DNA of 64,000 bases from Cytobacillus gottheilii (lineage in GTDB: Bacteria; Bacillota; Bacilli; Bacillales; Cytobacillaceae), in assembly GCF_001636345.1 (NCBI RefSeq), contig NZ_KV440945.1, forward strand, positions 739,340 through 803,339, given 5' to 3'. Made by a program: the position numbers and the translations under genes. Within the stretch, counting starts at the first letter, position 1. Every line of letters starts with the position of its first letter. Below are positions 11,705 through 31,463 of the stretch, piece after piece. The notes under the pieces were generated by a model, which did no database searches, had not been told where the DNA came from, and was given only the letters and a program-made list of their open reading frames with translations.

Positions 11705-11730
11705 TAACATTTGTAGAAGAATGTCGATAT
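11705..11730 (+). promoter_or_regulatory. Probable SigD promoter of the glycosylation cluster
   Basis: TAAC (11705-11708), 14 bp and GTCGATAT (11723-11730) differ from the SigD consensus at one base in each element. It lies 32 bp before the first gene after hag and could drive the long downstream cluster. Confidence 0.6.
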
Positions 11731-11761
11731 AAAACATATTGAAGAATCGGAGGAGTTAATT

Positions 11762-12349
11762 ATGAAATTATTCGCCATGAATATGGAATTTACTTTTGAG
11801 AATAGTGAAATAGGCACAACAAAACTTATAGAGAAAATCAACGAACTCATAGCTGATAGCGATCAATTTTTTAGTCACTTAAATATAGATGGTAATGAAA
11901 TTTATTCGGAACATATTGATTATATCTTGGACAACATATCTGAAATTAAAGAAATCACTCTAAAATTAAGCACGGTTGAAGAATTTGTCTCAAACCTGCT
12001 GGTATCTTTATACGATTATACTAATGGAGGAATTCCAGAAATAAAAAAAATGGTTGAAGAGTTATATCAAGACCCAACAGATCAAACATGGGAAACGTTA
12101 ACCCTTCTATTAGAAGGTATTGGATGGATTTATCAGACAGTCAAAAGTATTGATGGTATAGAACATAATATAGTAGGCTGGGAAGAAGTTTTAAAGAGTA
12201 TCGCGACTTTCGATACAGAGTTGCCTAATTTAATGGAAGCGATGGAAAATAAAGACTCAACTCTTATTGCAGATATTATTTTATACGAGATTTTACCACA
12301 ATTTGAAATAATTAACGGAGAAACAGAGAGGAACTTTGAAGTAAAATGA
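11762..12349 (+). CDS. Unknown 195-aa acidic protein, first gene after hag
   Basis: I cannot assign a family. The protein is strongly acidic, lacks signal peptide and transmembrane segments, and reads as predominantly helical (for example residues 20-60 and 140-190). GGAGGAG lies six bases before ATG 11762. A SigD-like promoter precedes it and the pseB-like gene starts 22 bp after it, so it is probably the first gene of the flagellin-modification transcription unit. A role as an assembly or glycosylation accessory factor is inference from context only. Confidence 0.75.
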   Translation: MKLFAMNMEFTFENSEIGTTKLIEKINELIADSDQFFSHLNIDGNEIYSEHIDYILDNISEIKEITLKLSTVEEFVSNLLVSLYDYTNGGIPEIKKMVEELYQDPTDQTWETLTLLLEGIGWIYQTVKSIDGIEHNIVGWEEVLKSIATFDTELPNLMEAMENKDSTLIADIILYEILPQFEIINGETERNFEVK

Positions 12350-12371
12350 AACTAACGAAGTGGGTATTTTG

Positions 12372-13385
12372 ATGCAAAAAACAATGTATACGAATAAAAA
12401 AATCCTTATTATTGGCGGTACCGGGACTATAGGTCAGTATTTAACAAAAGAATTGCTTTTGCAAGGTCCAAATGTTATCCGAATTTTTAGCAGAGATGAA
12501 TATAAACAATTTGAGATGCAGCAAGAATTACAGGAACATCAAAATATCCGGTATTTAATAGGTGATATAAGAGATGAGAAAAGGCTCTCTCGTGCAATGG
12601 AGGATATTGATTATGTTTTCCATCTTGCTGCTATGAAACATGTTCCAGCTTGTGAATATAACCCATTTGAAGCAGTCCAAACTAATGTGTTAGGCACGCA
12701 AAATGTTATACAGGCTGCATTAGAAGCAGGTGTGAAGAAAGTATTATTTACTAGTACGGACAAAGCTATAGCTCCAACAAATACCTATGGAGCAACTAAA
12801 TTAACGGCTGAAAAATTAATTTCTGCTACTGAATATCAAAAGGGACCAAAGGATACAGTTTTTTGTTCTGTAAGATTTGGGAACGTAATGGGTTCACGTG
12901 GATCTGTTATTCCGCTTTTTATGAAGCAAATCCTAATTGACAAAAAAGTTAATGTCACAGATTTGGAAATGTTAAGGTACATGATGACCCCGTCGCAAGC
13001 GATTTCTCTTATTTTAAAAGCAAATGAGATGGCTTTTGGAGGAGAAGTATTTGTTTTAAAAATGCCTGTCATAAAATTGAAGGATTTAGTAGAGGTTTTA
13101 ATTGAGGGAGTTAGCAAGAAACATAATCTGAATGACAAAGTGCAAATTAAAGAAATTGGTCTTCGTCCTGGGGAAAAAATGTATGAACAGTTAATGACTG
13201 AAGATGAGGCGAAGATAGCGTTAGAGACAGAAGAACTATTTATATTGCTACCTTCATTTGGAGGTAAAGGACCTAACTATAGAACATTAAAAAAATATAA
13301 TGGTGAACCTCCATCTCCTTTTAATGAAGCTACAATTAAAAAGGATACTTTAAGACAGTGGCTGCTGAAAGAGGAGCTATTTTAA
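12372..13385 (+). CDS. pseB: UDP-GlcNAc 4,6-dehydratase, PseB-like
   Basis: Short-chain dehydrogenase/reductase of the FlaA1/PseB type, which converts UDP-GlcNAc to a 4-keto-6-deoxy sugar, the first step to pseudaminic acid. The NAD(P) site GGTGTIGQYLTKELL is near residue 12. The 4,6-dehydratase hallmark TSTDKA is near 125, followed by the catalytic pair in YGATK. FGNVMGSRGSVIPLF is typical of this subfamily. It is 337 aa. ATG 12372 is used because GAAGTGGG lies seven bases upstream; the GTG 12360 is inside that site. It lies far from the other pse genes, at the opposite end of the cluster. Confidence 0.87.
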   Translation: MQKTMYTNKKILIIGGTGTIGQYLTKELLLQGPNVIRIFSRDEYKQFEMQQELQEHQNIRYLIGDIRDEKRLSRAMEDIDYVFHLAAMKHVPACEYNPFEAVQTNVLGTQNVIQAALEAGVKKVLFTSTDKAIAPTNTYGATKLTAEKLISATEYQKGPKDTVFCSVRFGNVMGSRGSVIPLFMKQILIDKKVNVTDLEMLRYMMTPSQAISLILKANEMAFGGEVFVLKMPVIKLKDLVEVLIEGVSKKHNLNDKVQIKEIGLRPGEKMYEQLMTEDEAKIALETEELFILLPSFGGKGPNYRTLKKYNGEPPSPFNEATIKKDTLRQWLLKEELF

Positions 13386-13423
13386 ATGAAATTGCAAGAA
13401 ATAACGGAACGGGGTGAATGTGT

Positions 13424-16400
13424 ATGTATAAAGAAAGTTTAAACTACCTTAAATTACATTATCCAAGTGTTTTAAATATAGTAAAGAATGAATTTTTAGG
13501 TAATGACCTATTAGAGCCAATAATAGAAGAAACAAGAAGTCATGAATTAACGATAAAAGCTGTTACTCAAAATCAATCCATATACATTCATAGTAAGTAT
13601 AACCCGTTAAAGGAAGCGGAAAGGATAATTCAAAATTATTCTAGTAACATTAGCAATGATACTCATGTCATGTTTTATGGGATTGGGCTTGGTTATCAGA
13701 TTGAATACTTTACAAAAGTTTTTCCTGATACTAAATTTTCTATCTATGAACCGAGTATTACTTTGTTTAAAGAGTTATTAAATAATCGTATTTTTCCCAA
13801 TTTTAATACACGTAATTTGGAAAAAATCTATTTAGAAAAAAATGCCAACTCCTTAGAAGGATATTTAAACGATTTCTCTTCATCAATATTCGGGGATGTT
13901 GTTTTGATTCCCTTGCCTAGTTATGAAAAAATATTTCCCAATCAATTTAGCAGTTTTGCAAAGAGGATAAAAATTGCTATAGAAGCAAGAGTTTATAACC
14001 TTGGTGTAGATTATCATTTTGCTAGGAGATGGACTCTAAATTCTTTAATGAATTTACCAACAACATTAAGTACTCCAAATTTTATTGAAGAGAAAAAAGA
14101 TTATTTTAAGGACAAACCTGTATTAATTGTTTCAGCTGGTCCTTCATTACAAGATGAATATGATAACTTAAGATATATCAAAGAGAAGGGCTTAGCTTAT
14201 ATTTTTGCAGTAGGTTCGGCGAACAAAGCACTAATTGCAAATGATATCCTGCCAGATGCAGTATTAACATATGATCCACAAGAGCATAACTTTTCTGTTT
14301 TTAGTGTTTTTGAGAAAGAAGGAATTACTTCTGTACCAATGATATACGGTACTAGTGTTGGTTATGAGACAATTCAAAGATACCCTGGCCCTAAATTTCA
14401 TTTTATAACATCACAGGACACAGTGTCTCCTTTTTATCTTGAGAATAAAAACAATAGTTATATAATAAATGATGCCTTTTCAATTGCAATTGTCACTATT
14501 GATATCCTATCAAGGTTAGAAGTAGGAATGATCATTTTAGTTGGGCAAAACCTCGCCTTTAAGGACAATTTATTCTATTCCAAAGATATTAACCGTGGGA
14601 GAAACAAAAATGCTGAAATTCAAAAAAAAGATATTATTGACTTAGTTGAAGTTGAGGATGTCTTTGGGAACAAAATAAACTCAAATTCTGCATTTAACCA
14701 AATGCGTTTTCTAATGCAGCAGTATATAGGAAAAAACAAGCATGTAGAGTTTATTAATACCACAAATGGTGGAGCAAAAATTGAAGGAGCTCCCTTCCAG
14801 CAACTAGAAGATGTAATAAATAGTAGACTACAAACTAAGGTTGTCTTAAAAGAAGCATTTTCTAACAACGTAATTGATTCAGGTCTTAAATACGTCACTG
14901 ATAAAGTAAGAAAAATGCACAATTCAATGAGGGATTTTGTTAAGCTAATTATCGAAATCGATGACCAGATAAATACGTTAGAAGAAGTAGTATTAAATAA
15001 TAGATTGACTAAGATTCAATCAGTTTATGTGAATTTTGATAAAAAGATTAGTAAGCTTCTAGAAAATGAATTTTATAATGTCTATATAAGACCAATTACT
15101 AGGGTACAATTTGAATTACTAGAGAAAAGTATACAAAAGGTTAAAAACGAAGAAAATCCGAAAGTTAAAGCTATACAGATTAAGAATTTATTTGGAGCAT
15201 ATTTGGATATATGTAAGCAAACATATAATGATCTTGCACCGACAATAAAGAACTATGTTCATAAGTATATTGAAAACAAAGATAAATACAAGGAATATAG
15301 AAGATACGAGAGTGATTCAGTAGAATTTCACTATACTGGGAATTGGTTGAAGCAAGAAACTAATCTTAAAAATAATAAATTCAAAGATCATACCGTCTAT
15401 CGTTGTATGAAGACAACAAATAAAAATGAAGAAATAAAATTCAAATTCAGAGGTTCATTTATAAGAATTATCGGTGGGAAACATATTAATAATTCTTCGA
15501 AAATATCTATAAAAATTGATGGGATTCCATATATCTTCTCATCAAGTGACAAACTATATGATGAATGTTTTGTAATGGATTATGAAAATGTTCTTTTTGA
15601 AAAGCGAAAGCTGTCTAACGATATACATGAGATTGAAATTACAAACCTAGATGATAATTTTTTTGTTTTTCAAGCTATTGAAATAGATTCGGATGGACGT
15701 TTAATGCATAAGGATGAGGCTCTGAACATAAAAGAAATGATGATCGGGCAAAGGATTAGATGTAATATAAAAGATCAGATTATAGATGGGGTTGCTTCAA
15801 TATCTAATATTGGCCAAGAAACTAAACCTCTAATATCTTATGAAAAACAAACACTCATAGGTGACTTTTATCTTATTAAATCTAACCAAGACATCTATGG
15901 AAATGACATATTTGTTAGTGACATTAGCCTTCCAGCAGTTAGATTAAAGTATAAATTAAATGATATATACGAAGAAATAGTTATAAATAAAATACCTATT
16001 ATATGTAATGAGAAAGAATCAATTGAAATCGTAAAAAGTAGTTCTTATTTTAAGGAAGGGAGATATCCTTGCCATCCTTTTCAAGCATTTAATAAGGATT
16101 TAACAGATCAATACCAGACGTGGGCAACTGAAAAGGGAGAAACAAGTGGTTGGATAGAATTTTCATTTCCAGAACCGACATTAATAAGTGTTTACACTAT
16201 ATCTCTTCAAAAACCACATTTAAATTATGATACAGCACTGCGAATGCCTCAAAATTGGGTGTTTCAAGCATGGGGTGGAGATAGTTGGATATTGTTAGAT
16301 GAGAGAGAAAATGTAACTGATTGGGTAATGTATGGACCAAAGAGATTTTTTGTGATTAACAATAAAAGTTTGTATAAAAAGTTTCGTATTAAGGTTATAA

Positions 16401-16453
16401 AAAATAATGGAGATCCTGAGTTTTTAGCTATTGGAGAAATAGAATATAATTAA
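13424..16453 (+). CDS. Maf-family flagellin glycosyltransferase with extra C-terminal modules
   Basis: Motility accessory factor (MAF_flag10/DUF115 type), the class that transfers nonulosonic acids to flagellin. Residues about 200-460 carry the core: the SAGPSL motif near 237, AVGSANKALI near 265 and DAVLTYDPQ near 283. At 1009 aa it is larger than usual Maf proteins. Residues about 625-760 look like a beta-sandwich module (HYTGNWLK, FKFRGSFIRIIGG), and the last 150 residues resemble an F5/8-type C (discoidin) galactose-binding domain (HPFQAF, SGWIEFSFPEPTLISVYTI). ATG 13424 follows GGGGTG by seven bases. Clearly A+T rich relative to the flagellar genes. Confidence 0.85.
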   Translation: MYKESLNYLKLHYPSVLNIVKNEFLGNDLLEPIIEETRSHELTIKAVTQNQSIYIHSKYNPLKEAERIIQNYSSNISNDTHVMFYGIGLGYQIEYFTKVFPDTKFSIYEPSITLFKELLNNRIFPNFNTRNLEKIYLEKNANSLEGYLNDFSSSIFGDVVLIPLPSYEKIFPNQFSSFAKRIKIAIEARVYNLGVDYHFARRWTLNSLMNLPTTLSTPNFIEEKKDYFKDKPVLIVSAGPSLQDEYDNLRYIKEKGLAYIFAVGSANKALIANDILPDAVLTYDPQEHNFSVFSVFEKEGITSVPMIYGTSVGYETIQRYPGPKFHFITSQDTVSPFYLENKNNSYIINDAFSIAIVTIDILSRLEVGMIILVGQNLAFKDNLFYSKDINRGRNKNAEIQKKDIIDLVEVEDVFGNKINSNSAFNQMRFLMQQYIGKNKHVEFINTTNGGAKIEGAPFQQLEDVINSRLQTKVVLKEAFSNNVIDSGLKYVTDKVRKMHNSMRDFVKLIIEIDDQINTLEEVVLNNRLTKIQSVYVNFDKKISKLLENEFYNVYIRPITRVQFELLEKSIQKVKNEENPKVKAIQIKNLFGAYLDICKQTYNDLAPTIKNYVHKYIENKDKYKEYRRYESDSVEFHYTGNWLKQETNLKNNKFKDHTVYRCMKTTNKNEEIKFKFRGSFIRIIGGKHINNSSKISIKIDGIPYIFSSSDKLYDECFVMDYENVLFEKRKLSNDIHEIEITNLDDNFFVFQAIEIDSDGRLMHKDEALNIKEMMIGQRIRCNIKDQIIDGVASISNIGQETKPLISYEKQTLIGDFYLIKSNQDIYGNDIFVSDISLPAVRLKYKLNDIYEEIVINKIPIICNEKESIEIVKSSSYFKEGRYPCHPFQAFNKDLTDQYQTWATEKGETSGWIEFSFPEPTLISVYTISLQKPHLNYDTALRMPQNWVFQAWGGDSWILLDERENVTDWVMYGPKRFFVINNKSLYKKFRIKVIKNNGDPEFLAIGEIEYN

Positions 16454-16458
16454 AAGAA

Positions 16459-17499
16459 ATGAGTGAAAATATGAACAATAAATTAAGGATATATATATTT
16501 GGAACAGGTAGCGGAGCGGAAGATTTATTAAGTTATTTAGACTTAAATAAGGTAGTAATTTTAGGTTTTTTAGACAATGATTTAAGAAAACATGGAGAAA
16601 CTTTTAATGATAGCAAAATTATGGGGTTTAATGAATTAGAATTAACAGATTATGACAAAATATTAATAGCTAGTGAAAGTTATGCTCAAGAGATGAGAAG
16701 ACAATTAATTGGACTAGGAATTCCCAAAAATAAAATATTTTCACCATTAGTTCATTTGCCAAAGTCAGGGATTGAAATGATCCGAAAAACTTTTAACATA
16801 TACAAGGAATTTAATAAATACTGTAGTACAGCAAAAATACAAGCTCTATATAATGATTATGCAATAAGCACGATAGATAAGAGTGTTTCCAGGAGTGACA
16901 TATCAATATATGATTACCCGGATTATCCAATAAAGGGGATTGATTTTGTCCGTATATCTACAATGGAATTTTTAGCTAAAGAAATAAATGAAAAAAAATT
17001 ATCAGGGGCAGTTGCTGAATTAGGAGTATATAGAGGGGATTTCAGTAAATTGATCAGTAAGTTATTTCCTGAAAACAAATTATATCTATTTGATACATTT
17101 GAAGGCTTTAATGAAGAAGATATTAAAATAGAAGAAGATTTTTTACTTTCTAATGCTACTGAAGGAAGATATGGAAACACGAGTATTAACTTGGTTTTAG
17201 AGAAAATTTCTCGAACAAATGTAGAAGTGAAAAAAGGTTATTTCCCAGATACCACTAAAGGGTTAGAGGATGAAAAGTTTTCATTTGTAAGTTTAGATGT
17301 AGATCTATATAAACCCACATATGAGGGACTGTCTTTCTTTTATCCCCGTCTAGAAAAAGGGGGCTATATTATGATTCACGACTACAACTTAGATTACTAC
17401 AAAGGAGTTAAAAAAGCTGTCAGAGAATTTTGCGAGGAAAAGAATATTAACATTGTACCAATAAGTGATTATTTTGGAAGTGCAATAATAACAAAATGA
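16459..17499 (+). CDS. Rossmann module fused to TylF-type methyltransferase
   Basis: Two-part protein of 346 aa. Residues 1-90 form a small Rossmann-like module (IYIFGTGSGAEDLL, LGFLDND, KILIASESYAQEM) shared with the next three genes. Residues about 150-346 are a SAM-dependent methyltransferase of the macrocin O-methyltransferase (TylF/MycF) family: AVAELGVYRGDFSK, YLFDTFEGF, FVSLDVDLYKPT and GGYIMIHDY are all typical. It would O-methylate a glycan sugar. The start could be ATG 16459 or ATG 16471; neither has a strong ribosome binding site. It follows the Maf gene by 5 bp. Confidence 0.82.
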   Translation: MSENMNNKLRIYIFGTGSGAEDLLSYLDLNKVVILGFLDNDLRKHGETFNDSKIMGFNELELTDYDKILIASESYAQEMRRQLIGLGIPKNKIFSPLVHLPKSGIEMIRKTFNIYKEFNKYCSTAKIQALYNDYAISTIDKSVSRSDISIYDYPDYPIKGIDFVRISTMEFLAKEINEKKLSGAVAELGVYRGDFSKLISKLFPENKLYLFDTFEGFNEEDIKIEEDFLLSNATEGRYGNTSINLVLEKISRTNVEVKKGYFPDTTKGLEDEKFSFVSLDVDLYKPTYEGLSFFYPRLEKGGYIMIHDYNLDYYKGVKKAVREFCEEKNINIVPISDYFGSAIITK

Positions 17500-17500
17500 G

Positions 17501-18916
17501 GTGACTTCTTTGAAGATAATAATCTTTGGTACTGGAAGCTGCTGTATAGAAACATTAACTAAAATTGACCATAACAAAGTAGAGATTATCGGTTTTATGG
17601 ATAATGACAAACAAAAACAGCATCGGACCTTTAATGGAAAATATGTATATAATCCTGAAAGTATAACTAGTCTAAATTATGATCTTATACTAATTGCAAG
17701 TGAGTATAGTGCAGAAATTATTAATCAATTGCTAGATTTGAAGGTTGATATTAGAAAAGTTATTCCTGTCTTACATCCCCAATTCACAAAGCAATTAGAT
17801 GAAAAATATAAAGAAAAATTAAAAGACGTACAAAAAGTTGATTATATTAATCCAAGATTAAAGAAAAAAGTAGCATTATTAAACCTGAATAATTCGGGAA
17901 GTAATACATTTGCACTCTATAAGAATATGCCTAAATCTATAGAAGAAAAATATGATGTACAACTCATTAATAAAGAGGAATTGAGGGATGATTCAGATTT
18001 TGATTTAATTTGTTCCACTAGTATTTATAGTGTTTACAAACCATCAATAATAAATGTTCAACTATGGCATGGTTTTCCTTTGAAAAAAATCGGAACTAGA
18101 ACCGATTTGTTTTTCAACTCTTATAGTGAAGATGTCAAAGTTAATACTGATAAAATAATTTCCTATTCTGAGACATACAGTACCTTATTTAATGCTAGTT
18201 TCCCAAATAGTCCAAATAAATATGAAATTTGTGGTATGCCGCGTAATGATTTCTTATTTGATAAAAATCCAGCACTAATGAAAGAGATTTTTGGGGAAAA
18301 CATATTTGCAAAAAAAATCATCATGTACCTTCCCACTTATAGAAAATGGAAGGTTGATTTGAGAGAAAATGGCGACAGAAACTGGAATAATTTCTTTGGA
18401 TTTAAGAAATTTTCTAAAGATAATTTTGTGAGTTATTTAAGAAAAAATAAACTATATTTTATTTGTAAACTTCATCATATGGAGTACAATCAATTAGATA
18501 TCAACTTATATAAAGATTGCTCAGATGTAATTAAGTTTATTGAAGATGATGAGTTAGTAAATAGGAATATAGATCTATACGAAATAATTGCTAATATAGA
18601 TTTATTGATTACAGATTACTCATCAGTTTATTTTGATTTATTGCTTACAAATATTCCTTTAATTTTTACACCTGTCGATATAGATTTTTATCAAAATAAT
18701 AGAGGTTTTAATTTAGAGCCTTATGACTTTTGGACTCCGGGGCCGAAGGTTTTCAATCAGGAAGGTCTATTAACTGAAATTGAGAAAGCATTGAATCATG
18801 ACTCATATAAACAAATTAGAGGAGTATTAACAAATATTGTTCATCAATTTAAAGATAATAAGTCAAGTGAACGAGTTTGGACATTATTAGATACTCTATT
18901 AAAGGGAAAGAGTTGA
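17501..18916 (+). CDS. Rossmann module fused to CDP-glycerol glycerophosphotransferase
   Basis: Residues 1-90 repeat the small Rossmann-like module (IIIFGTGSCCIETL, IGFMDNDKQ, LILIASEYSAEI). Residues about 120-471 match the TagB/TagF/TarF family that transfers glycerol phosphate from CDP-glycerol: QLWHGFPLKKIGT near 187, GMPRNDFLF, YLPTYR near 275, and the C-terminal LITDYSSVYFDLLL with PLIFTP. Such enzymes normally build wall teichoic acid; here it lies in a flagellin-modification cluster beside tagD. The start codon at 17501 follows TGAGGTGACT, with the previous stop two bases away, so it is translationally coupled. Confidence 0.85.
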   Translation: MTSLKIIIFGTGSCCIETLTKIDHNKVEIIGFMDNDKQKQHRTFNGKYVYNPESITSLNYDLILIASEYSAEIINQLLDLKVDIRKVIPVLHPQFTKQLDEKYKEKLKDVQKVDYINPRLKKKVALLNLNNSGSNTFALYKNMPKSIEEKYDVQLINKEELRDDSDFDLICSTSIYSVYKPSIINVQLWHGFPLKKIGTRTDLFFNSYSEDVKVNTDKIISYSETYSTLFNASFPNSPNKYEICGMPRNDFLFDKNPALMKEIFGENIFAKKIIMYLPTYRKWKVDLRENGDRNWNNFFGFKKFSKDNFVSYLRKNKLYFICKLHHMEYNQLDINLYKDCSDVIKFIEDDELVNRNIDLYEIIANIDLLITDYSSVYFDLLLTNIPLIFTPVDIDFYQNNRGFNLEPYDFWTPGPKVFNQEGLLTEIEKALNHDSYKQIRGVLTNIVHQFKDNKSSERVWTLLDTLLKGKS

Positions 18917-18919
18917 AAA

Positions 18920-21262: not shown

Positions 21263-21324
21263 GAATAATCCTTGTGCATTTAAAAACTTTCTTCAAGCAT
21301 AAAATATTTTATAAGGAGAGCAAA

Positions 21325-23717: not shown

Positions 23718-24422
23718 ATGTCTCTACTATTCAATAAAATAAAAATAAACTACACGAACTTTCAAAAGAAATATGTCACTGATAAAAGAAGGCCACAAGA
23801 ATATTTTATCAATCGTTACTATGCACATATCATAGACCCTTTTTTCACTAAGGTAGCATATGATTTAAAGATGTCACCTAATATGGTTACTGTTATAGCA
23901 GGTCTAATGGGAATTGGAGCATCTATTGCATTTTTATTTGATTATTTGGTAATAGGTGCAATACTTTTGCAGTTACACCATTTCATAGATGGCGCTGATG
24001 GAAATTTGGCTAGAATGTTAAACAAATGTACTCCATTTGGTGCAAAATTGGATAAATATTTTGACCAGATTGTTAGGCTGTTTTTATTTTTTTCTCTATC
24101 TTTTGTGACTGATGTTTCGGTTTGGGCGAAGATAGCGCTGATTGCAACTATTTATATAGATTTATTTGTTATTCAATATGTAGTAGTCCCTTATATGAAA
24201 AGAAATAAATTATATAGGGCAAGATGGAAGATGTGGTTTCTTAATAGAGGGATCATCCCTGCTTTTGATATTTTTACTATATATTTTCTGATTTCAATTT
24301 TTGCTATTTTTCATAATTTAGAATCAGTCGTTTATATAATCATCATAGGAAAAAATATTGATTGGATATATCGGGTTTGGGAAGTAGTAAAAACTAAAAA
24401 GTATAGCAAAACGGTTTTATAA
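23718..24422 (+). CDS. CDP-alcohol phosphotransferase family membrane protein
   Basis: Integral membrane enzyme that displaces CMP from a CDP-activated alcohol. The full catalytic signature DG-x2-AR-x8-G-x3-D-x3-D is present around residues 92-117 (DGNLAR, then G, D, D at the right spacing). Hydrophobic segments around 50-85, 120-155 and 185-220 indicate several membrane passes. With tagD two genes downstream, the natural donor would be CDP-glycerol, but CDP-activated sugars or polyols cannot be excluded. The gene has an AAGGAGAG ribosome site and lies in the tight operon run. Confidence 0.83.
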   Translation: MSLLFNKIKINYTNFQKKYVTDKRRPQEYFINRYYAHIIDPFFTKVAYDLKMSPNMVTVIAGLMGIGASIAFLFDYLVIGAILLQLHHFIDGADGNLARMLNKCTPFGAKLDKYFDQIVRLFLFFSLSFVTDVSVWAKIALIATIYIDLFVIQYVVVPYMKRNKLYRARWKMWFLNRGIIPAFDIFTIYFLISIFAIFHNLESVVYIIIIGKNIDWIYRVWEVVKTKKYSKTVL

Positions 24423-24433
24423 GAGGGTTGGAA

Positions 24434-25096
24434 ATGATAGAAAAAGTATATATATTTGACCTAGATGATACCTTGTTTGAAGAACATAGCTATGTACGAT
24501 CTGGATTCTTTGCGGTTGCTAGTGAGATTTCTAAACAACATCCAGTATCTGAGGAAAAGATATATGACCTCTTGGTGGAAACTTGGTTGAAGCTAGGAAG
24601 AGGTAGAGTTTTTAACATAGTATGCGCTAAGTTGAAAATTGACTTAGATATTCAAAAACTTGTGTATTTATATAGAAATCATAAGCCGCAAATAAAACTT
24701 TATGAAGATGCAGAAACTGTTATAACTCAATTATCAAGAAATTATAAATTAGGCTTAATTACGGACGGTAACTCTCAAATGCAATGGTCAAAAATCAAAG
24801 CCCTCAATTTAGAGGAGCGTTTTGATTGTATTGTAGTGACAGGAGATTTAGGAAGAGATTTTTGGAAACCGCACGAGTTGCCATACAAGAAAGTTGTGGA
24901 AAGTCTGAATATGAGCTACGACCAATGTGTTTACATCGGCGACAATCCTAATAAAGATTTTATTACAGCAAGTAAATTAGGTATGGGAACAGTACGTATA
25001 ATTCGAGATGTTGGAGATCATATGAAATTAACATTATCTAAAGAGTATGAAGCTGATAGGAATATTTATTCTTTATTGGAGCTTATAGATAAGTAA
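24434..25096 (+). CDS. HAD-superfamily phosphatase
   Basis: 220-aa HAD hydrolase with intact motifs: DLDDTLFEE near residue 8, LITDGNS near 110, a Lys in WKPHELPYKK near 150 and YIGDNPNKDF near 170. This is a small-molecule phosphatase type (class IA). Its place directly before tagD suggests it makes or removes a phosphorylated three-carbon or sugar precursor in the glycan pathway, but the substrate is not shown by sequence. ATG 24434 has AAGAGGG about seven bases upstream; TTG 24428 is less likely. Confidence 0.82.
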   Translation: MIEKVYIFDLDDTLFEEHSYVRSGFFAVASEISKQHPVSEEKIYDLLVETWLKLGRGRVFNIVCAKLKIDLDIQKLVYLYRNHKPQIKLYEDAETVITQLSRNYKLGLITDGNSQMQWSKIKALNLEERFDCIVVTGDLGRDFWKPHELPYKKVVESLNMSYDQCVYIGDNPNKDFITASKLGMGTVRIIRDVGDHMKLTLSKEYEADRNIYSLLELIDK

Positions 25097-25106: not shown

Positions 25107-25505
25107 ATGAAAAGAGTAATCACTTATGGGACGTTTGATCTGTTGCATTACGGCCATATCAACATTTTACAGCGTGCTAAGGAGTTAGGGGATTATTTGA
25201 TTGTCGGTTTATCAACGAATGAATTTAATGTATCGAAGGGGAAAGAAAGTTACTTCTCATATACTGAACGTAAGCAATTACTCGAATCCATTCGCTACGT
25301 TGATTTAGTAATTCCTGAATATCATTGGGATCAAAAAATTAATGATATTAAAGAGTACAAAGCAGATTTATTTGTTATGGGTGACGACTGGAGAGGGAAT
25401 TTTGATTATCTGAAAGACTATTGTGATGTGAAATATCTGAGCAGAACTCCAGAAATCTCTACAACGAAAATAAAGAGTGATTTAAATCTGGTTACAATAA
25501 AGTGA
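25107..25505 (+). CDS. tagD: Glycerol-3-phosphate cytidylyltransferase
   Basis: Makes CDP-glycerol from CTP and sn-glycerol-3-phosphate. The 132-aa protein has the nucleotidyltransferase HxGH motif (TFDLLHYGHI) near residue 10 and the RTxxISTT motif (RTPEISTTKIKSDL) near the C terminus; VMGDDWRGNFDYL is characteristic of TagD. The gene is immediately upstream of the ATP-grasp gene, with which it overlaps by GTGA. In this cluster it would feed the TagB/TagF-like transferase and the CDP-alcohol phosphotransferase. A housekeeping tagD for wall teichoic acid may exist elsewhere. Confidence 0.9.
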   Translation: MKRVITYGTFDLLHYGHINILQRAKELGDYLIVGLSTNEFNVSKGKESYFSYTERKQLLESIRYVDLVIPEYHWDQKINDIKEYKADLFVMGDDWRGNFDYLKDYCDVKYLSRTPEISTTKIKSDLNLVTIK

Positions 25506-26473
25506 GTATGGCTAGTTTTGAAAGTCCGTCTAATGTGTTAATAACAAGCATCTCTCGTAAAGTTCCATTGTTACAATCGATTAAAGCAGCTATGGCTAAA
25601 ATCGGTTTAAACATGAAGCTATATGGGGGAGATATCGATAGATCTGTTATAGCAAAGCATTTTGTGGATACCTTCTGGGAGATGCCTCGCATATCTAATT
25701 TGGATATTGAAGAATTAATCTCATACTGTAAAAAAAATGAAATTCGGTTTATTATTCCTACCAGAGATGGTGAGTTAAAGTACTTCTCATCAAATAGAGA
25801 CAAACTTAAACGTTTGGGAATTCATGTAATGATTTCTCCGTTATCTAATGTTGAAATTTGTCTGGACAAATTAAAATTTTTTTCATATTCAAGAGAGCAT
25901 GGTATACCGGTAATTCCGACTTTCCTGTGCATAGAAGATAGCAGAGAGAACATGAAATACGTTGTTAAAGAGAGATTTGGAGCAGGTTCCCAAACACTAG
26001 GAAAGAGTCTTACCTCTACACAAGCTCTAAACCATGCAAAAAATCTTAAAGAACCTATTTTTCAGCCAATGATAGAAGGTACAGAGTATAGTATTGACAT
26101 ATATGTTGATATAAATGGCAGATCGAAAGGTGTAATTTCTAGGACAAGGGATAAAATTGTAGATGGAGAATCTCAAATAACGACTATAAGAGACATGCCG
26201 GAACTAGAAAAACTATGTTCTAATGCTGCAGAAAAATTAGGCCTGTATGGACATGTCATCTTTCAAGTTATAATTGATCAGAATAATGAATTTCATATTA
26301 TTGAATGTAACCCTCGTTTCGGAGGTGCATCTACTCTGAGTGTTGCTGCTGGCCTTGATAGTTTTTATTGGTTCTTTCTAGAATCCATTGGTGAAAATCT
26401 AGATCAATATTCTTTTACTCAAAATGAAAAAGTATCAACAATGGTTCGCCATTCGCAAGACTATATTTATTAG
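25502..26473 (+). CDS. ATP-grasp ligase
   Basis: 323-aa ATP-grasp enzyme of the carbamoyl-phosphate-synthase-large-subunit-like type (PylC/COG0458-like). It has a Rossmann-type N-terminal preATP-grasp domain (VLITSISRKVPLLQSI), an ATP-binding Lys in YVVKERFGAGSQTLGKS near 155-170, and the metal-binding HIIECNPRFGGAS near 265. Such enzymes couple a carboxylate to an amine. In a pathway that makes 4-amino sugars but lacks the PseH acetyltransferase it is a candidate N-acylating enzyme (inference). GTG 25502 overlaps the tagD stop; ATG 25508 is the alternative start. Confidence 0.8.
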   Translation: MSMASFESPSNVLITSISRKVPLLQSIKAAMAKIGLNMKLYGGDIDRSVIAKHFVDTFWEMPRISNLDIEELISYCKKNEIRFIIPTRDGELKYFSSNRDKLKRLGIHVMISPLSNVEICLDKLKFFSYSREHGIPVIPTFLCIEDSRENMKYVVKERFGAGSQTLGKSLTSTQALNHAKNLKEPIFQPMIEGTEYSIDIYVDINGRSKGVISRTRDKIVDGESQITTIRDMPELEKLCSNAAEKLGLYGHVIFQVIIDQNNEFHIIECNPRFGGASTLSVAAGLDSFYWFFLESIGENLDQYSFTQNEKVSTMVRHSQDYIY

Positions 26474-26485
26474 TAAGGTGATCGT

Positions 26486-27217
26486 ATGAATGTAATTATC
26501 ATAATCCAAGCCAGAATGGGCTCCTCACGTCTCCCAGGGAAGGTGCTAATGCCGCTTGGTAATTCAGTTGTATTGGATTATGTCATTGCGAGATGTCAGC
26601 AGATTCCTAAAGCTAAGGAAGTTATCATAGCTACTTCCACTTTGAACCAAGATGACCCGATAGAAGAATGGTGTCAGCAAAATGATGTAATTTGCTTTAG
26701 AGGTTCTGAGGATGATGTTCTATCTCGGTATTATGAATGTTCAAAACAATATCAGCCAGACTATGTGATTAGAGTTACAGCGGACTGTCCATTTGTCGAC
26801 TATCATTTGGCCGAAGATATTATGAATAAAATGGAGTCTCAGCCAACTGATATAATGGATTTTAGGGGGGAATTACCTAGAGGCCTTGTGGTTGAAATGG
26901 TCTCTTATAATGCATTAAGATATATGTTCCAACATGGCAAAGAGGATAGACATCGTGAACATGTGACATACTATGCAAAAGAAGAGAAACATATCAATGA
27001 ATTTAAACGGACACTCTATACTATTCCCGATAATATGCAGCATTCTCATCTAAGAATAACCTTAGACACTGAAGAAGACTATGAACTCTGTAAAAGTATT
27101 GCCAATCACTTTGAGGGAGATGTATTAATTCCTTCTGAAGAGGTAGTGCGTTTTCTTCTGGAACATCCTGAAATTGCCCAAATAAATGCCCATATTGAGC
27201 AGAAACCGGTTGTGTAG
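26486..27217 (+). CDS. pseF: Cytidylyltransferase, SpsF/PseF-like
   Basis: 243-aa nucleotidyltransferase of the family annotated as spore coat polysaccharide protein SpsF or pseudaminic acid cytidylyltransferase. The N-terminal NTP-binding signature IIIQARMGSSRLPGKVLMPL is present, as are RVTADCPFVDY near 95 and LRITLDTEEDYELCKSI near 195. It would activate pseudaminic acid as CMP-Pse. It directly precedes pseG and pseI, the gene order seen in other Bacillus flagellin-modification loci. AAGGTG lies about eight bases before ATG 26486. Confidence 0.85.
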   Translation: MNVIIIIQARMGSSRLPGKVLMPLGNSVVLDYVIARCQQIPKAKEVIIATSTLNQDDPIEEWCQQNDVICFRGSEDDVLSRYYECSKQYQPDYVIRVTADCPFVDYHLAEDIMNKMESQPTDIMDFRGELPRGLVVEMVSYNALRYMFQHGKEDRHREHVTYYAKEEKHINEFKRTLYTIPDNMQHSHLRITLDTEEDYELCKSIANHFEGDVLIPSEEVVRFLLEHPEIAQINAHIEQKPVV

Positions 27218-27220
27218 CTA

Positions 27221-28258
27221 ATGAATATTTTCTTTCGTGTTGATGCTTCAACGACAATAGGAACAGGACATATTATGCGCTGTCTTACCTTGGCAAACTT
27301 CTTGAAAGAGAACGGAGCCAAGGTTACTTTTATTTGTGCTGACTTAAAAGGAAATATGATTGAACATTTAAAATCCAAAGGCTTTAAAGTTTTTACAGTT
27401 GCGGACGATCTAGAAGTCGATGCTCAATGTACTATCTCTATTTTAAAAAATATAAAAGTTGATCTGATAATTATAGATCATTATCAGATTGATATCATTT
27501 GGGAAAGAACCGTAAGAAAAGCTTTTCCTTCCATAAAAATCATGGTAATTGATGACTTAGCTAATCGTGAGCATGATTGTGATATACTTCTTGATCAGAA
27601 TTATCAAGATAACTTTCAATTCCGGTATGATCAATTAGTTCCAAAAGCGTGTAAAAAACTGCTTGGACCAGGGTATCTTCTGCTTAGACCGGAATTTTAT
27701 AAAGAAGAAGCAGCACGGCAAAGTAATTTAATAAGTAGTATATTAATTTTTTATGGTGGTTCAGATCCTACAGGGGAAACTTTAAAGTTGGTAAACGCGT
27801 TGAATCAGCTGGAACCTTCTGAAATAATAATACATGTTGTCGTTGGGTTATCAAATCCCCAAAAAGATATTATTAAGGAGACATGTATCGAAAAAGGTTA
27901 CAAATATCATGAACAAATTGACTACCTTGCAGATTTGATGGCGGAATGTGATTTAGCTTTCGGAGCGGGTGGGGTAACGATGTGGGAACGCTGTTATCTT
28001 GGGCTTCCTTCTATTGTGACCATTGTAGCCGAGAATCAAAGGGAATCAACTATTGCTACGGCAGAATATGGGGCCATTTGGAATCTTGGCTGGTATGAGG
28101 GTGTAAAACAAACAGATCTTGTCGATATAATTAAAAGAGCAATAAAATGCCCAAGTAAACTGAAAGAACTATCTTTAAGATCAAGTATATTAATGCAAAA
28201 AAGACAAAGAGAGCATATACATCCTGTTGTAAAAGCAATTATGGAGGGTAAAAAATGA
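27221..28258 (+). CDS. pseG: UDP-2,4-diacetamido-2,4,6-trideoxy-L-altrose hydrolase PseG
   Basis: Removes UDP from the pseudaminic acid precursor. It is a GT-B-fold hydrolase related to MurG. The opening FRVDASTTIGTGHIMRCLTLA carries the catalytic His, DYLADLMAECDLAFGAGGVT is the conserved active-site stretch near residue 235, and VIDDLANREHDCDILLDQN is typical of PseG. It is 345 aa. It begins three bases after pseF without a clear Shine-Dalgarno, indicating translational coupling, and its stop overlaps pseI (ATGA). Confidence 0.9.
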   Translation: MNIFFRVDASTTIGTGHIMRCLTLANFLKENGAKVTFICADLKGNMIEHLKSKGFKVFTVADDLEVDAQCTISILKNIKVDLIIIDHYQIDIIWERTVRKAFPSIKIMVIDDLANREHDCDILLDQNYQDNFQFRYDQLVPKACKKLLGPGYLLLRPEFYKEEAARQSNLISSILIFYGGSDPTGETLKLVNALNQLEPSEIIIHVVVGLSNPQKDIIKETCIEKGYKYHEQIDYLADLMAECDLAFGAGGVTMWERCYLGLPSIVTIVAENQRESTIATAEYGAIWNLGWYEGVKQTDLVDIIKRAIKCPSKLKELSLRSSILMQKRQREHIHPVVKAIMEGKK

Positions 28259-29301
28259 CAATTAATATTGAAGGGCGATTAATAGGCTCTCAACAAAAGC
28301 CTTTTATTATAGCTGAGATGTCTGGTAATCATAATCAGTCATTAGAGAAGGCCTTGCAAATTGTAGAAGAAGCTGCAAAGGCTGGAGTAGATGCATTAAA
28401 ACTTCAGACATATACAGCTGATACCATGACTTTAGATATAAATGAGGGCGAGTTTTATATAGATAATCCAGATAGTTTATGGAAGGGAACTTCTTATTAT
28501 GATTTGTATAAAGAAGCCTATACACCTTGGGAGTGGCATGAACCAATCTTTAAAAGATGCCGTGAACTTGGATTAATTGCATTCAGCTCACCATTCGATG
28601 AGACTGCAGTCGATTTTCTTGAAACGTTAAATGTACCATGTTACAAAATTGCTTCCTTTGAAAATACTGATATTCCGCTCATTGAAAAAGTGGCATCTAC
28701 AGGTAAGCCGCTGATCATATCCTCAGGTATGGCGACTGCTGCTGAATTAGATGATTCTATAAGAGCCGCTCGCAAAGCAGGATGCAAAGAAATCATTCTT
28801 CTAAAATGTACAAGTACATATCCTTCTTCTCCAGAAAATACTAATCTTCAAACACTTGCACATATGAGAGAATTATTTCAATGTGAAGTCGGTTTATCCG
28901 ATCATACAATGGGAATTGGAGTGGGGGTAGCAAGTGTTGCATTAGGAGCGAGTGTAATTGAAAAGCATTTTACCACTTCAAGAGCTGAAGGCGGAACGGA
29001 TGCTGCATTTTCCATGGAACCTGCAGAAATGAAGTCTCTTGTAGAAGAGACTGAAAGAGCTTGGTTAAGTCTTGGCAGTATTACATATGGCCCGACAAAA
29101 GCAGAAGAGCCATCTCTTAAGGATCGTCGTTCATTATATGTGGTAAAGGATATACAAGCCGGAGAAATATTAACAAAAGAAAATATTCGAGCCATTCGTC
29201 CAGGTTTTGGACTTCCACCAAAACATTTAAAAAGTGTACTAGGAAAAGTGGCAAAAACCAGTGTGAAAAAAGGAACTCCATTATCATGGGAGTTGTTATA
29301 G
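28255..29301 (+). CDS. pseI: Pseudaminic acid synthase PseI
   Basis: NeuB-family enzyme condensing the 6-deoxy-altrose derivative with phosphoenolpyruvate. The N-terminal barrel shows FIIAEMSGNHNQSLEKAL, KLQTYTADTMTLD and SLWKGTSYYDLYKEAYTPW, the last diagnostic of PseI rather than sialic or legionaminic acid synthases; GLSDHTMG and EKHFT are the metal and substrate residues. The C-terminal SAF domain (about 285-348) includes ENIRAIRPGFGLPPK. It is 348 aa. It overlaps pseG by four bases, with GGAGGG as ribosome site. Confidence 0.94.
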   Translation: MTINIEGRLIGSQQKPFIIAEMSGNHNQSLEKALQIVEEAAKAGVDALKLQTYTADTMTLDINEGEFYIDNPDSLWKGTSYYDLYKEAYTPWEWHEPIFKRCRELGLIAFSSPFDETAVDFLETLNVPCYKIASFENTDIPLIEKVASTGKPLIISSGMATAAELDDSIRAARKAGCKEIILLKCTSTYPSSPENTNLQTLAHMRELFQCEVGLSDHTMGIGVGVASVALGASVIEKHFTTSRAEGGTDAAFSMEPAEMKSLVEETERAWLSLGSITYGPTKAEEPSLKDRRSLYVVKDIQAGEILTKENIRAIRPGFGLPPKHLKSVLGKVAKTSVKKGTPLSWELL

Positions 29302-29312
29302 GGGGTAAATAA

Positions 29313-30254
29313 ATGAATGTTTTGCTTACTGGAGGAGCTGGTTTCATTGGTCGCGCTGTTGCCAAGAAACTTCTCTCTGACGGCCATAAAGTTTGGATAC
29401 TAGATGATCTATCAAATGGAAGAGAAGAAAACATCGAGGAATTTAGGAATGAACTTGAAGATTTTATTATCGGTGATATAAAAAATGAAGAGTTATTAAA
29501 TACTATCTTCAAAGAAATACCATTTGATATGTGCTACCATCTTGGTGCATCTATAAATGTACAGGATTCTATTGATGATCCAAGAACCACCTTTAATAAT
29601 GATACAGTTGGTACTTTTTATATTCTTGAACAATGCCGAAAGCATAACGTAAAGGTTGTGTTTATGAGTACATGTATGGTGTATGACCGCTGTTTAGATG
29701 CAAGTGGAATTACTGAACAGCATCCGATTAAACCAGCCTCACCCTATGCTGGATCAAAAATTGCAGCAGAGAATATGGTTCTGTCCTACTATCATGCATA
29801 TGGTCTTCCTACAGTGGTCATACGACCTTTCAATACTTACGGGCCTTATCAGAAAACCGGTGGAGAAGGCGGCGTTGTAGCCATCTTTATAAAGAAAAAG
29901 CTATCTGAGGAAGCTGTAAGTATTTACGGAGAAGGAACCCAGACACGAGATCTGCTATATGTGGATGATTGCGCTGATTTTGTTGTTCAAGCTGGATATT
30001 CAGATCAGGTTAATGGCGAGATTGTAAATGCAGGACTTGGAAAAGACATATCTGTAAATGATTTAGCTATGTTAATTGTGGAAGATCCTGCAAGAATTGA
30101 ACATGTAGAGCATATTCATCCACAAAGTGAAATTAAGAAACTATTATGTAATTATGATAAGGCGAAGAACCTTCTTGGCTGGGAACCTAAGATTTCCCTT
30201 GAAGAAGGAATTAGAAGAACGGAACAATGGATAAAATCAAGTCACCTTATTTAA
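29313..30254 (+). CDS. NAD-dependent sugar epimerase/dehydratase
   Basis: Extended SDR enzyme of 313 aa acting on a nucleotide sugar. The cofactor loop TGGAGFIG is at the N terminus, the catalytic Thr/Tyr/Lys set appears in MSTCMVYD and SPYAGSKIAAEN, and RPFNTYGPYQ and GTQTRDLLYVDD are standard for the family. It does not belong to the PseB branch, so it probably supplies a second sugar or a modified precursor. GGGGG precedes ATG 29313. Its stop codon lies in the loop of a terminator-like hairpin upstream of pseC. Confidence 0.85.
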   Translation: MNVLLTGGAGFIGRAVAKKLLSDGHKVWILDDLSNGREENIEEFRNELEDFIIGDIKNEELLNTIFKEIPFDMCYHLGASINVQDSIDDPRTTFNNDTVGTFYILEQCRKHNVKVVFMSTCMVYDRCLDASGITEQHPIKPASPYAGSKIAAENMVLSYYHAYGLPTVVIRPFNTYGPYQKTGGEGGVVAIFIKKKLSEEAVSIYGEGTQTRDLLYVDDCADFVVQAGYSDQVNGEIVNAGLGKDISVNDLAMLIVEDPARIEHVEHIHPQSEIKKLLCNYDKAKNLLGWEPKISLEEGIRRTEQWIKSSHLI

Positions 30255-30269
30255 AAGGTGACTTTTTTT
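30239..30269 (+). terminator. Terminator-like hairpin between the epimerase gene and pseC
   Basis: AAGTCACCTT (30239-30248) and AAGGTGACTT (30255-30264) form a perfect 10-bp stem followed by T residues. The epimerase stop codon TAA is inside the loop, and the pseC ribosome site begins only two bases after the T tract. Ribosomes reaching the stop codon would melt the hairpin. Confidence 0.75.
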
Positions 30270-30281
30270 GGAGGGATATTT

Positions 30282-31463
30282 ATGACTTTGGCAATTATGG
30301 GAGGAAAACCTGTAAGAGATACATTTTTATCTTATGGTCAACAGTGGATAGATGAAGATGATATACAGATCGTAGTAAATACCTTGAAAAGTTCATTTTT
30401 AACTCAAGGACCTATGATAAGAGAATTTGAACAATCAATAGCCAAGTATGTGGGAGCCAAGCATGCAGTAGCATTTTCAAATGGCACTGCTGCTTTGCAT
30501 GGTGCTTGTTTTGCCGCAGGCATAAGTGACGGTGATGAAGTGATTACTTCTCCTATTACATTTGCGGCAAGTAGCAATTGTGTTTTGTATTGTGGCGGCA
30601 AACCAGTTTTTACCGATATTGATCAAAAAACATACAATATTGATCCACTAAAAGTCAAAGAAGCTATCACTGAGAGAACAAAGGCAATCATTCCAGTTGA
30701 TTTTACTGGTCAGCCGGTTGATTTGGATTCTATAAGTTCAATAGCGAAGGAACATAATCTAGTTGTGATTGAAGATGCTGCACATTCTATAGGAGCAAGT
30801 TATAAAGGAGTAAAGATCGGATCCCAAGCGGATATGACAATGTTTAGCTTTCATCCAGTAAAGCATATTACAACGGCTGAGGGCGGAATCATTGTAACTA
30901 ACTCTGATGAATATGCGGAAAAGCTTCGATTATTTCGTTCGCATGGTATTAAAAACACAGATTTATTGAAAGAAGAGGGACCCTGGTATTATGAAATGGT
31001 AGCTCTAGGATACAACTATCGTATGACAGATATTAATGCGTCCCTAGGAATTTCACAATTAAATAAGCTAGATTATTTTATTGAAAAGAGAAGAAGTATC
31101 GCAGCCCGCTATGATAATGAATTTTCTAAAATAAGTGGGGTGAAAACTCCCTATCAGTCAAAGGATACAAATTCTAGCTATCATTTATATATGTTACAAC
31201 TGGATTTAGATAAGTTTAAGGTAGGCAGAAGGGAAATATTTGAGGCATTAAGAGCGGAGAATATAGGGGTTCATGTACATTATCTGCCTGTTTATCTGCA
31301 TCCATATTATCGAGAGTTGGGATATGAAAAAGGGTTATGCCCAATTGCCGAAGATTGGTATGAGTCAGCACTAACAATTCCCTTATTTCCAAAAATGAGT
31401 GAAACAGATGTTGCCTCTGTTATCGAGGCAATAAGCAAAGTTGTTAAATATTATCTTAAATAA
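30282..31463 (+). CDS. pseC: UDP-4-keto-6-deoxy-AltNAc aminotransferase PseC
   Basis: PLP-dependent DegT/DnrJ/EryC1-family aminotransferase that installs the 4-amino group. Signatures are FSNGTAALHGACFAAGI, the PLP-phosphate region near residue 60, VVIEDAAHSIGASYKG near 160 and the Schiff-base Lys in SFHPVKHITTAEGG near 190. It is 393 aa. GGAGGG supports ATG 30282; the earlier in-frame GTG 30258 lies inside the hairpin. It is the last gene of the cluster, about 105 bp before the flaG transcription unit. Confidence 0.92.
   Translation: MTLAIMGGKPVRDTFLSYGQQWIDEDDIQIVVNTLKSSFLTQGPMIREFEQSIAKYVGAKHAVAFSNGTAALHGACFAAGISDGDEVITSPITFAASSNCVLYCGGKPVFTDIDQKTYNIDPLKVKEAITERTKAIIPVDFTGQPVDLDSISSIAKEHNLVVIEDAAHSIGASYKGVKIGSQADMTMFSFHPVKHITTAEGGIIVTNSDEYAEKLRLFRSHGIKNTDLLKEEGPWYYEMVALGYNYRMTDINASLGISQLNKLDYFIEKRRSIAARYDNEFSKISGVKTPYQSKDTNSSYHLYMLQLDLDKFKVGRREIFEALRAENIGVHVHYLPVYLHPYYRELGYEKGLCPIAEDWYESALTIPLFPKMSETDVASVIEAISKVVKYYLK

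Follow-up and report, generated by a model that had tools for sequence, protein, structure and literature searches.

The closest described relatives of the locus considered here are the flagellin islands of Geobacillus (types II and IV), in which Maf and pseudaminic acid (Pse) genes stand at the flagellin locus; the island of Geobacillus thermoglucosidans DSM 2542T also carries tagD and pgs, the latter a cytidine diphosphate (CDP)-alcohol transferase gene, and a phospholipid modification was proposed for it (PMC5109656). We analyzed a 64,000-nucleotide stretch of the Cytobacillus gottheilii genome (assembly GCF_001636345.1, contig NZ_KV440945.1; hereafter the window), in which a 20-kb island between the flagellin gene hag and flaG joins genes of a pseudaminic-type acid pathway to genes resembling those for capsule and teichoic acid synthesis. 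A Maf-family gene lies beside flagellin and genes of a cytidine monophosphate (CMP)-nonulosonate pathway are present, and we read the locus as a flagellin glycosylation island of the Maf type, with a glycan that capsule-style enzymes probably extend, a reading based on sequence comparison to which we give a probability of about 0.62.

The window shares with DSM 2542T, where the two genes adjoin, the presence of tagD and of a CDP-alcohol transferase gene, together with an inventory in which the published account names no PseH, and with Geobacillus type IV the position of Pen at the 5' end and of Pal near the 3' end; it differs from type II, which has PseB and a proposed phospholipid, and for which the same account names neither a TagF-like transferase nor a ribosyltransferase (PMC5109656). 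Pen and Pal, recognized in the window by sequence, together perform the job of PseB in Bacillus thuringiensis (PMC7439481, PMC8987622, PMC5109656), but the PseH-type acetyltransferase gene of that route is missing from the present island. In Clostridioides difficile, quantitative proteomics showed that the Type A flagellin glycan requires the TagF-like CD0244, and a CDP-activated group was proposed; a TagF-like flagellin-sugar enzyme is accompanied there, as here, by a HAD-like protein, a nucleotidyltransferase and a methyltransferase, but the Type A glycan has an N-acetylglucosamine (GlcNAc) core and N-methyl-threonine, and the description of it notes no Maf or ribosyltransferase (PMC10714395). 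A further difference is that a GlcNAc-transferring glycosyltransferase was not found in our island, where Pfam put none of the 16 proteins above cut-off in a glycosyltransferase family (a weak Glyco_tran_28_C match in PseG reached 16.9 bits). Variable region 1 of the enterobacterial flag-2 systems contains TagD in 235 strains and TagB in 65, from which a teichoic-like flagellin glycan was suggested; the likeness lies in TagD and TagB within flagellar islands, the difference in the flagellar system and host group (PMC6993521).

The remaining precedents come mainly from capsules. In Bcs3 of Haemophilus influenzae type b (Hib), CriT moves ribose-5-phosphate from phosphoribosyl pyrophosphate (PRPP), CrpP removes the phosphate and CroT adds ribitol phosphate (PMC10299916), and Cj1432 of the Campylobacter jejuni capsule carries out the same two steps of ribose-5-phosphate transfer and dephosphorylation (PMC12096443). 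The window resembles Bcs3 and Escherichia coli K18 in combining a TagF-like transferase, a HAD phosphatase and a PRPP-dependent ribosyltransferase, and K18 also in keeping CroT apart from CrpP-CriT; it differs in having TagD, Rossmann modules and a flagellin setting where those systems have a ribitol-phosphate capsule polymer and an SH3b domain (PMC10299916). No SH3 family was found at E<=0.01 among the Pfam matches listed for the 16 island proteins, nor did these include an IspD-like/alcohol dehydrogenase pair for CDP-ribitol supply, TagD (CDP-glycerol) being present instead. The flagellin of Shewanella oneidensis bears a substituted nonulosonic acid of 236 Da, with methylated forms of 250 and 264 Da; a flagellin nonulosonate is thus extended there too, but with no known ribose or phosphate in the account given and by a different gene cluster (PMC3765264). 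A preliminary description of the window had considered the combination of pseudaminic acid and phosphoglycerol undescribed in flagella, which is too strong given tagD with a CDP-alcohol transferase in Geobacillus (PMC5109656) and TagD/TagB in flag-2 islands (PMC6993521). In open-licence literature on flagellin with glycerol phosphate or teichoic chemistry, and on pseudaminic acid with ATP-grasp enzymes, no search having been aimed at ribose on flagellin, we recognized no further description of the combination. The present analysis adds the putative ribofuranosyltransferases, the assignment of Pen and Pal, the proposed exchange of PseH for an ATP-grasp enzyme and the swappable middle of the islands.

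Capsule-type transferases between hag and flaG

The interval between the end of hag and the start of flaG is filled by 16 open reading frames (ORFs), all on the forward strand and separated by -4 to 32 bp (Table 1). The preliminary description was right that the genes are co-directional with very short gaps, though it counted 15 of them, and also that their guanine-plus-cytosine (GC) content is low: 0.320 across positions 11762-31463 and 0.293 across 13418-25096, vs 0.417 in positions 1-9700 plus 36001-64000 of the window. The start it gave, 11705, precedes the first ORF and lies 3' of both hag and a terminator-like hairpin, and since this hairpin follows hag the island is probably its own transcription unit. 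The genes hag and flaG are neighbors in B. subtilis; in two genomes of the same genus as the window (G327 and G307, 20-kb stretches L126 and L127) they lie close together with no match to any island gene, ORFs of 84 and 409 amino acids (aa) standing between them in L126. In both genomes the CDP-alcohol transferase was unmatched at E<=0.001 and PseI at E<=1e-100. The island was therefore either gained in this genome or lost in those two, and its lowered GC content is compatible with gain. Hag is 323 aa long here vs 274 aa in the island-free G327. The order flaG-fliD-fliS 3' of the island is found in G396, G087 and G152.

Table 1. Features of the hag-flaG interval, with positions in the window
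Feature	Position	Strand	Assignment	Evidence
hag	10579..11550	+	flagellin, 323 aa from MIINNN start; likely acceptor	PF00669 174.9 bits
hairpin	11567..11596	+	terminator-like, 13 pairs, T tail	pattern scan only
g01	11762..12349	+	195 aa, without known domain; probable Maf/flagellin adaptor	conserved beside hag and one Maf class
g02	12360..13385	+	Pen-type UDP-GlcNAc 5,6-dehydratase	PDB 6bwc (Pen) 383.6 bits vs FlaA1 2gn4 249.7
g03	13418..16453	+	Maf flagellin nonulosonic-acid transferase, 1011 aa	PF01973 126.8 bits; weak 5mu5 match, E 0.0015
g04	16459..17499	+	TylF-type methyltransferase, N-terminal Rossmann module	PF05711 79.6 bits; module alignment
g05	17501..18916	+	TagF/CroT-like CDP-glycerol phosphotransferase, N-terminal Rossmann module	PF04464 164.5 bits; PDB TarL 8va1, TagF 3l7i
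g06 (HADa)	18920..21262	+	780 aa; HAD phosphatase, PRPP-dependent ribofuranosyltransferase, C-terminal Rossmann module	phmmer
g07 (HADb)	21274..23688	+	804 aa; HADa paralogue, 26% identical; HAD motif IV lost, ribosyltransferase part kept	alignments
g08	23718..24422	+	CDP-alcohol phosphotransferase	PF01066 56.4 bits; DxxDGxxARx8GxxxDxxxD present; nearest solved structure AF2299 4o6m
g09 (HADc)	24428..25096	+	HAD phosphatase co-travelling with ATP-grasp gene	PF13419 92.2 bits; co-occurrence
g10	25107..25505	+	TagD, glycerol-3-phosphate cytidylyltransferase	TIGR01518 194.8 bits (cut-off 165.4); 2b7l, 1coz E<=2e-53
g11	25502..26473	+	ATP-grasp ligase, proposed PseH replacement	PF15632/PF02655; mutual exclusion with GNAT
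g12	26486..27217	+	SpsF/PseF-like CMP-nonulosonate cytidylyltransferase	PF02348 105 bits
g13	27221..28258	+	PseG UDP-sugar hydrolase	TIGR03590 296.6 bits, above cut-off
g14	28255..29301	+	PseI nonulosonate synthase	TIGR03586 498.9 bits, above cut-off
g15	29313..30254	+	Pal, Pen's partner	PDB 6bwl (Pal) 473.4 bits, next match 177.6
g16	30258..31463	+	PseC aminotransferase	TIGR03588 512.5 bits, above cut-off
flaG	31559..31960	+	right border of island	ORF list

The putative ribofuranosyltransferases HADa and HADb, both missed in the preliminary description, occupy 4.8 kb of the island. Pfam gave weak HAD matches for the two ORFs, plus their end modules, and phmmer matched HADa to the ribofuranosyltransferase of PDB 7shg (E 4.1e-22) and to Hib Bcs3 (E 1.4e-16). 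A three-sequence profile matched Bcs3 across CrpP and CriT (5.1e-22). HADa and HADb align over 797 columns; HADb alone as a query found no PDB sequence matches, and Foldseek on its AlphaFold2 (AF2) model ranked 7shg (E 2e-15) and Bcs3 first, but this model is poor (predicted local distance difference test [pLDDT] 56.6, from an alignment of three sequences), so these fold matches count only jointly with the sequence matches of HADa. By eye, HADa has all of HAD motifs I-IV and HADb has the first Asp, while both proteins have counterparts of the loop acids and SR reported for the ribosyltransferase CriT of Bcs3 (PMC10299916). A reading of the pair as unknown hydrolases was rejected in view of the 7shg and Bcs3 matches by sequence, profile and fold. 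Together with g05 they appear to be a split Bcs3-like set, one CroT-like and two CrpP-CriT-like enzymes encoded by adjacent but separate ORFs. A search with HADb at E<=1e-6 matched 4 of 357 other genomes in a sample of the phylum, three of these matches being weak and partial, and a plasmid search returned 5 records with 21-23% identity, from Azospirillum and Acetobacter.

In alignment, g05 keeps the catalytic His and DYSS positions of TagF. Genome-wide (completeness 99.86%), g10 is the sole match to TIGR01518 and g05 the sole match to PF04464; because both are unique in the genome, standard wall teichoic acid is not expected to be their job, and a role in wall teichoic acid only, the alternative named in the preliminary description, was rejected as neither family has a match outside the island. 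The TagA family has one PF03808 match in the genome, at a locus (L128, C1:552600-572500) that is S-layer-type by eye: the TagA/WecG-type gene lies beside CsaB-like, MurJ-like, UDP-sugar dehydrogenase-like and SLH-type genes, pointing to an S-layer with a pyruvylated wall polymer. The loci with TagD in the survey described below are four flagellin-locus islands, those of the window, G396, G271 and G343, and each of them also has a PF04464-type protein. TagD of G396 is fused to a GFO/IDH domain and the PF04464 protein there reaches 211.1 bits by Pfam; the G343 island is flanked by two flagellin-like genes, and flaG was undetected there. Proteins of G396 and Heyndrickxia also match PF04464 in part, at 48 and 51 bits. 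At the remaining loci of the survey, a TagF-like gene was sought with g05 by phmmer only, so divergent copies may have been overlooked.

The pseudaminic-type acid pathway and its missing PseH

Where the preliminary description listed PseB, PseC, PseF, PseG and PseI, our searches uphold PseC, PseG and PseI, which pass their NCBIfam cut-offs, and place PseF in its general family only, the PseF model not being among the NCBIfam matches of g12. PseB was rejected for g02, which scores 330.8 bits against the NCBIfam PseB model (cut-off 407.75) and has Pen as its best solved match. Its partner Pal (g15), a short-chain dehydrogenase/reductase overlooked earlier, was also considered as an ordinary epimerase, an assignment rejected because Pal 6bwl is by far the best solved match. 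The Maf, TagD, TagB/TagF-like and CDP-alcohol phosphotransferase genes named in the preliminary description all stand, with matches to PF01973, TIGR01518, PF04464 and CDP-OH_P_transf.

The distribution of these genes was surveyed across 83 PseI loci, comprising 76 from a PseI search of 397 genomes of the order plus G396, G271, G087, G152, the window, L043 and L044; an 84th source (L047) has no PseI and was excluded, L098 is a 5.6-kb contig, L118 and L119 represent one genus, and the counts treat loci as they stand, with kinship ignored. All 47 loci without a Pal-like gene score at most 275 against g02. Of the 36 with Pal, 29 score at least 300 and the other seven (L044, L081, L090, L093, L100, L108 and L114) score below 200 in the stretch fetched. 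Longer stretches of L090 and L093 contain g02 scores of 522 and 520 (L140 and L138), the g02-like gene of L114 is interrupted by the end of its stretch, and in the extended L100 (L143) the top g02 score within 14.7 kb is at most 46.

Pfam and profile scans found no GNAT family match among the 16 island proteins, and a genome-wide search for PseH gave 17 weak matches, none above the PseH cut-off. We defined a PseF class of 20 of the 83 loci, the window included, in which PseF scores at least 300 against g12. Thirteen of these have the ATP-grasp gene only and six a PseH-like GNAT only; none has both and one (L112) has neither (Fisher probability ~2e-4, calculated by hand with the loci taken as independent though related). 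Among the remaining 63 loci, 54 have GNAT only, 2 ATP-grasp only (L043 and L055), 7 neither and none both. GNAT was scored throughout with a profile seeded from two islands belonging to the surveyed set. HADc is found at 10 of the 13 ATP-grasp loci of the PseF class vs none of the other 7. From these patterns we infer that the ATP-grasp ligase and HADc may perform the N-acylation in place of PseH, and since ATP-grasp and GNAT never co-occur in the PseF class, the acyl group on the pseudaminic-type acid is probably not acetyl. A C. jejuni capsule pathway reportedly includes a HAD phosphatase and an ATP-dependent amidoligase, according to titles cited in PMC12096443, and offers a lead for the same pairing.

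The solved structure weakly matched by g03, 5mu5, is that of a Maf. The long C-terminal extension of g03 (residues about 640-1011) has no Pfam match; Mafs longer than 900 aa occur in the window, G396, G271, G087, L093, L114 and L137, all in the PseF class, with several others interrupted by stretch ends and so of incomplete length. The neighboring g01 has no Pfam or NCBIfam match and no PDB fold match at E<=0.001, from an AF2 model that is confident (pLDDT 94.2). Genes like g01, at 59 bits or more, adjoin Mafs scoring at least 280 in 17 loci, the window included; L069 has one of 36 bits, and the exceptions are L104 (24 bits) and L112 (none). Where the best Maf stays under 140, as at 15 loci, g01 never exceeds 25 bits. 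The product of g01 is a probable Maf/flagellin adaptor, and a Maf helper, GlfM, is mentioned elsewhere (PMC13317340).

Four island enzymes share a Rossmann-like module, which is N-terminal in the TylF-type and TagF-like proteins and C-terminal in HADa and HADb; Pfam lists related modules as PglD_N or C2185-like_N. A profile of the module (E<=1e-3) found matches in 14 of the 84 sources, where its fusion partners include GT2, GT8, FkbM and nitroreductase domains; 12 of the 14 belong to the PseF class and the other two are Thermincola and Cohnella. We propose that the module has a common acceptor-recognition role. The idea that it is exclusive to flagellin islands was rejected because it also occurs at a locus of G518, discussed below.

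A predicted flagellin glycan and its alternatives

The glycan that best accommodates these genes would be flagellin-O-Pse(N-acyl)-ribofuranose-glycerol phosphate, in which Pse stands for the nine-carbon acid sugar. Pen and Pal would convert UDP-GlcNAc to UDP-4-keto-6-deoxy-L-AltNAc (where AltNAc is N-acetylaltrosamine), PseC would aminate this product, and the ATP-grasp ligase with HADc, replacing PseH, would add an acyl or aminoacyl group to the amine; PseG, PseI and the PseF/SpsF-like enzyme would then give a CMP-activated pseudaminic-type acid, which Maf, aided by g01, would link to Ser/Thr of Hag in the cytoplasm. HADa and HADb may transfer ribose-5-phosphate from PRPP, with HADa removing the phosphate, TagD may make the CDP-glycerol from which g05 adds glycerol phosphate, and g04 may methylate. 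The short, finished glycoflagellin would leave through the flagellar channel; no flippase, polymerase, ATP-binding cassette (ABC) transporter or lipid-sugar initiating enzyme is among the family matches listed for the 16 proteins, up to 25 families being listed for three of them. The flagellin glycan with pseudaminic acid and phosphoglycerol proposed in the preliminary description remains the best inference and is strengthened by the genome-unique TagD and PF04464 genes and the four flagellin-locus islands that carry both, although its content was incomplete, with Pal, the PseH gap, the likely replacement of PseH by ATP-grasp and HAD enzymes, and the ribofuranosyltransferases missed. A more elaborate form of this reading, to which we give somewhat less than even odds, is a protein-linked "mini-capsule": the split Bcs3-like set would build one or a few ribofuranose-glycerol-phosphate units on Maf-attached pseudaminic acid bearing a 7-N group made by the ATP-grasp and HAD enzymes, the middle block would be swapped like a serotype cassette (for pyruvyl transferase, GT2/GT8, LuxC/LuxE or polyol kinase genes), and the shared Rossmann module would be a sign that many of the exchanged enzymes have an acceptor in common.

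Several observations weigh against the island reading. The Arg of CriT loop 1 is Ser in HADa, HADb has no HAD motif IV, and a search of 396 other genomes of the order with HADb was negative at E<=1e-8. In the phylum sample, HADb has its best relative in G518, at a locus unmatched by any flagellar query used, so that transfer from a surface-polysaccharide locus, with no role at flagellin, is conceivable; the Rossmann module is found at that locus too. The model leaves the CDP-alcohol phosphotransferase unexplained. Moreover, GNAT and ATP-grasp were both undetected by the survey profiles in 8 of the 83 loci, and the absence of GNAT alone is therefore no proof of replacement.

A rival view is that a plain pseudaminic acid flagellin island acquired TagD, the TagF-like enzyme and the ribosyltransferases by insertion, and that these make a separate surface polymer, such as a minor teichoic acid or capsule. 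The G518 relative of HADb would suit such a polymer, as would the CDP-alcohol phosphotransferase family, whose members are membrane enzymes; but the lack of initiating, export and polymerizing enzymes among the listed matches, and the joint presence of TagD and PF04464 genes in the interval from hag to the Pse genes of four separate genomes, make it unlikely. Alternatively, the nonulosonic acid might carry a single phosphodiester-linked small group, as in C. difficile Type A, where the TagF-like CD0244 is needed and a CDP-activated group was proposed (PMC10714395), the ribosyltransferases being inactive remnants. The loss of motif IV from HADb agrees with this, but HADa retains every HAD motif, both proteins keep the ribosyltransferase-loop acids and SR (by eye), and both ORFs are uninterrupted; we regard it as slightly less probable than a separate polymer. 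A lipid modification of flagellin, the proposal of the Geobacillus authors from tagD and pgs (PMC5109656), gains from the resemblance of g08 to archaetidylinositol-phosphate and PI-phosphate (phosphatidylinositol-phosphate) synthases, but the product of TagD is CDP-glycerol rather than CDP-diacylglycerol, TagD or a small nucleotidyltransferase is close by in five of the seven other g08-type islands (with no obvious one in Alkalihalobacillus or Heyndrickxia), and a lipidated subunit would presumably suit the export channel badly. We consider it very improbable.

If the glycan is extended on flagellin by capsule-style enzymes, capsule and teichoic-acid enzymes would be acting on a protein later exported through the flagellar channel, and enzymes whose usual substrates are polymers could be studied on flagellin as a soluble acceptor with simple genetics. 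The filament surface would gain ribofuranose and glycerol phosphate, with possible effects on phage binding, adhesion and swimming, and the exchange of PseH for an ATP-grasp enzyme predicts non-acetyl pseudaminic acids in bacilli.

Related islands and the CDP-alcohol phosphotransferase

The gene order hag-g01-Pen-Maf-[variable]-CDP-alcohol transferase-HADc-ATP-grasp-PseF-PseG-PseI-Pal-PseC is common to the window, G396 and Gracilibacillus lacisalsi; TagD lies in the variable part in the latter two, and G. lacisalsi also has a TagF-like gene, with flaG undetected. The same order with parts exchanged is seen in Alkalihalobacillus trypoxylicola, Calidifontibacillus oryziterrae and Heyndrickxia sporothermodurans, the stretch from the last being without hag and Maf. 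In these flagellin islands the ends are constant and the middle is swappable. The hag-flaG island of C. oryziterrae contains LuxC-, LuxE- and AMP-binding-type genes with a GNAT gene, an acyl-reduction theme (L041:13754-18252), and A. trypoxylicola has a 349-aa FemAB/GNAT-like protein between a PseH-like GNAT and PseF (L040:1010-2056).

The invariant residues of the motif that characterizes CDP-alcohol phosphotransferases are present in g08. Among the order's 397 genomes, 157 have some match to g08, but only 5, the window included, reach E 3.1e-57 or better. A non-exhaustive scan of genome contigs with two peptide patterns added six loci, making eight islands with the window and G396, and each of the eight stretches includes one or more flagellar genes. 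TagD or a small nucleotidyltransferase lies near the g08-type gene in six of them: TagD in the window and G271, a TagD fusion plus an NTP (nucleoside triphosphate) transferase in G396, an IspD-like enzyme in Calidifontibacillus and an NTP transferase in Thermincola and Cohnella. A rule that the transferase always stands beside a CDP-polyol enzyme was rejected, as it fails in the other two, where none was seen (Alkalihalobacillus) or a mannose-type enzyme only (Heyndrickxia). In the Thermincola metagenome-assembled genome (L043, class Clostridia), the transferase is 64% identical to that of the window and lies near a GLF-type mutase, ATP-grasp, HADc and fliS, which suggests wide transfer or a misbinned contig. 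In Cohnella thailandensis (L047:5164-11534), genes for a sulfatase-fold protein, an FGGY kinase, an iron alcohol dehydrogenase, a small nucleotidyltransferase, the CDP-alcohol transferase and a class II aldolase form a row close to flagellin and Maf that looks like a dedicated CDP-polyol route.

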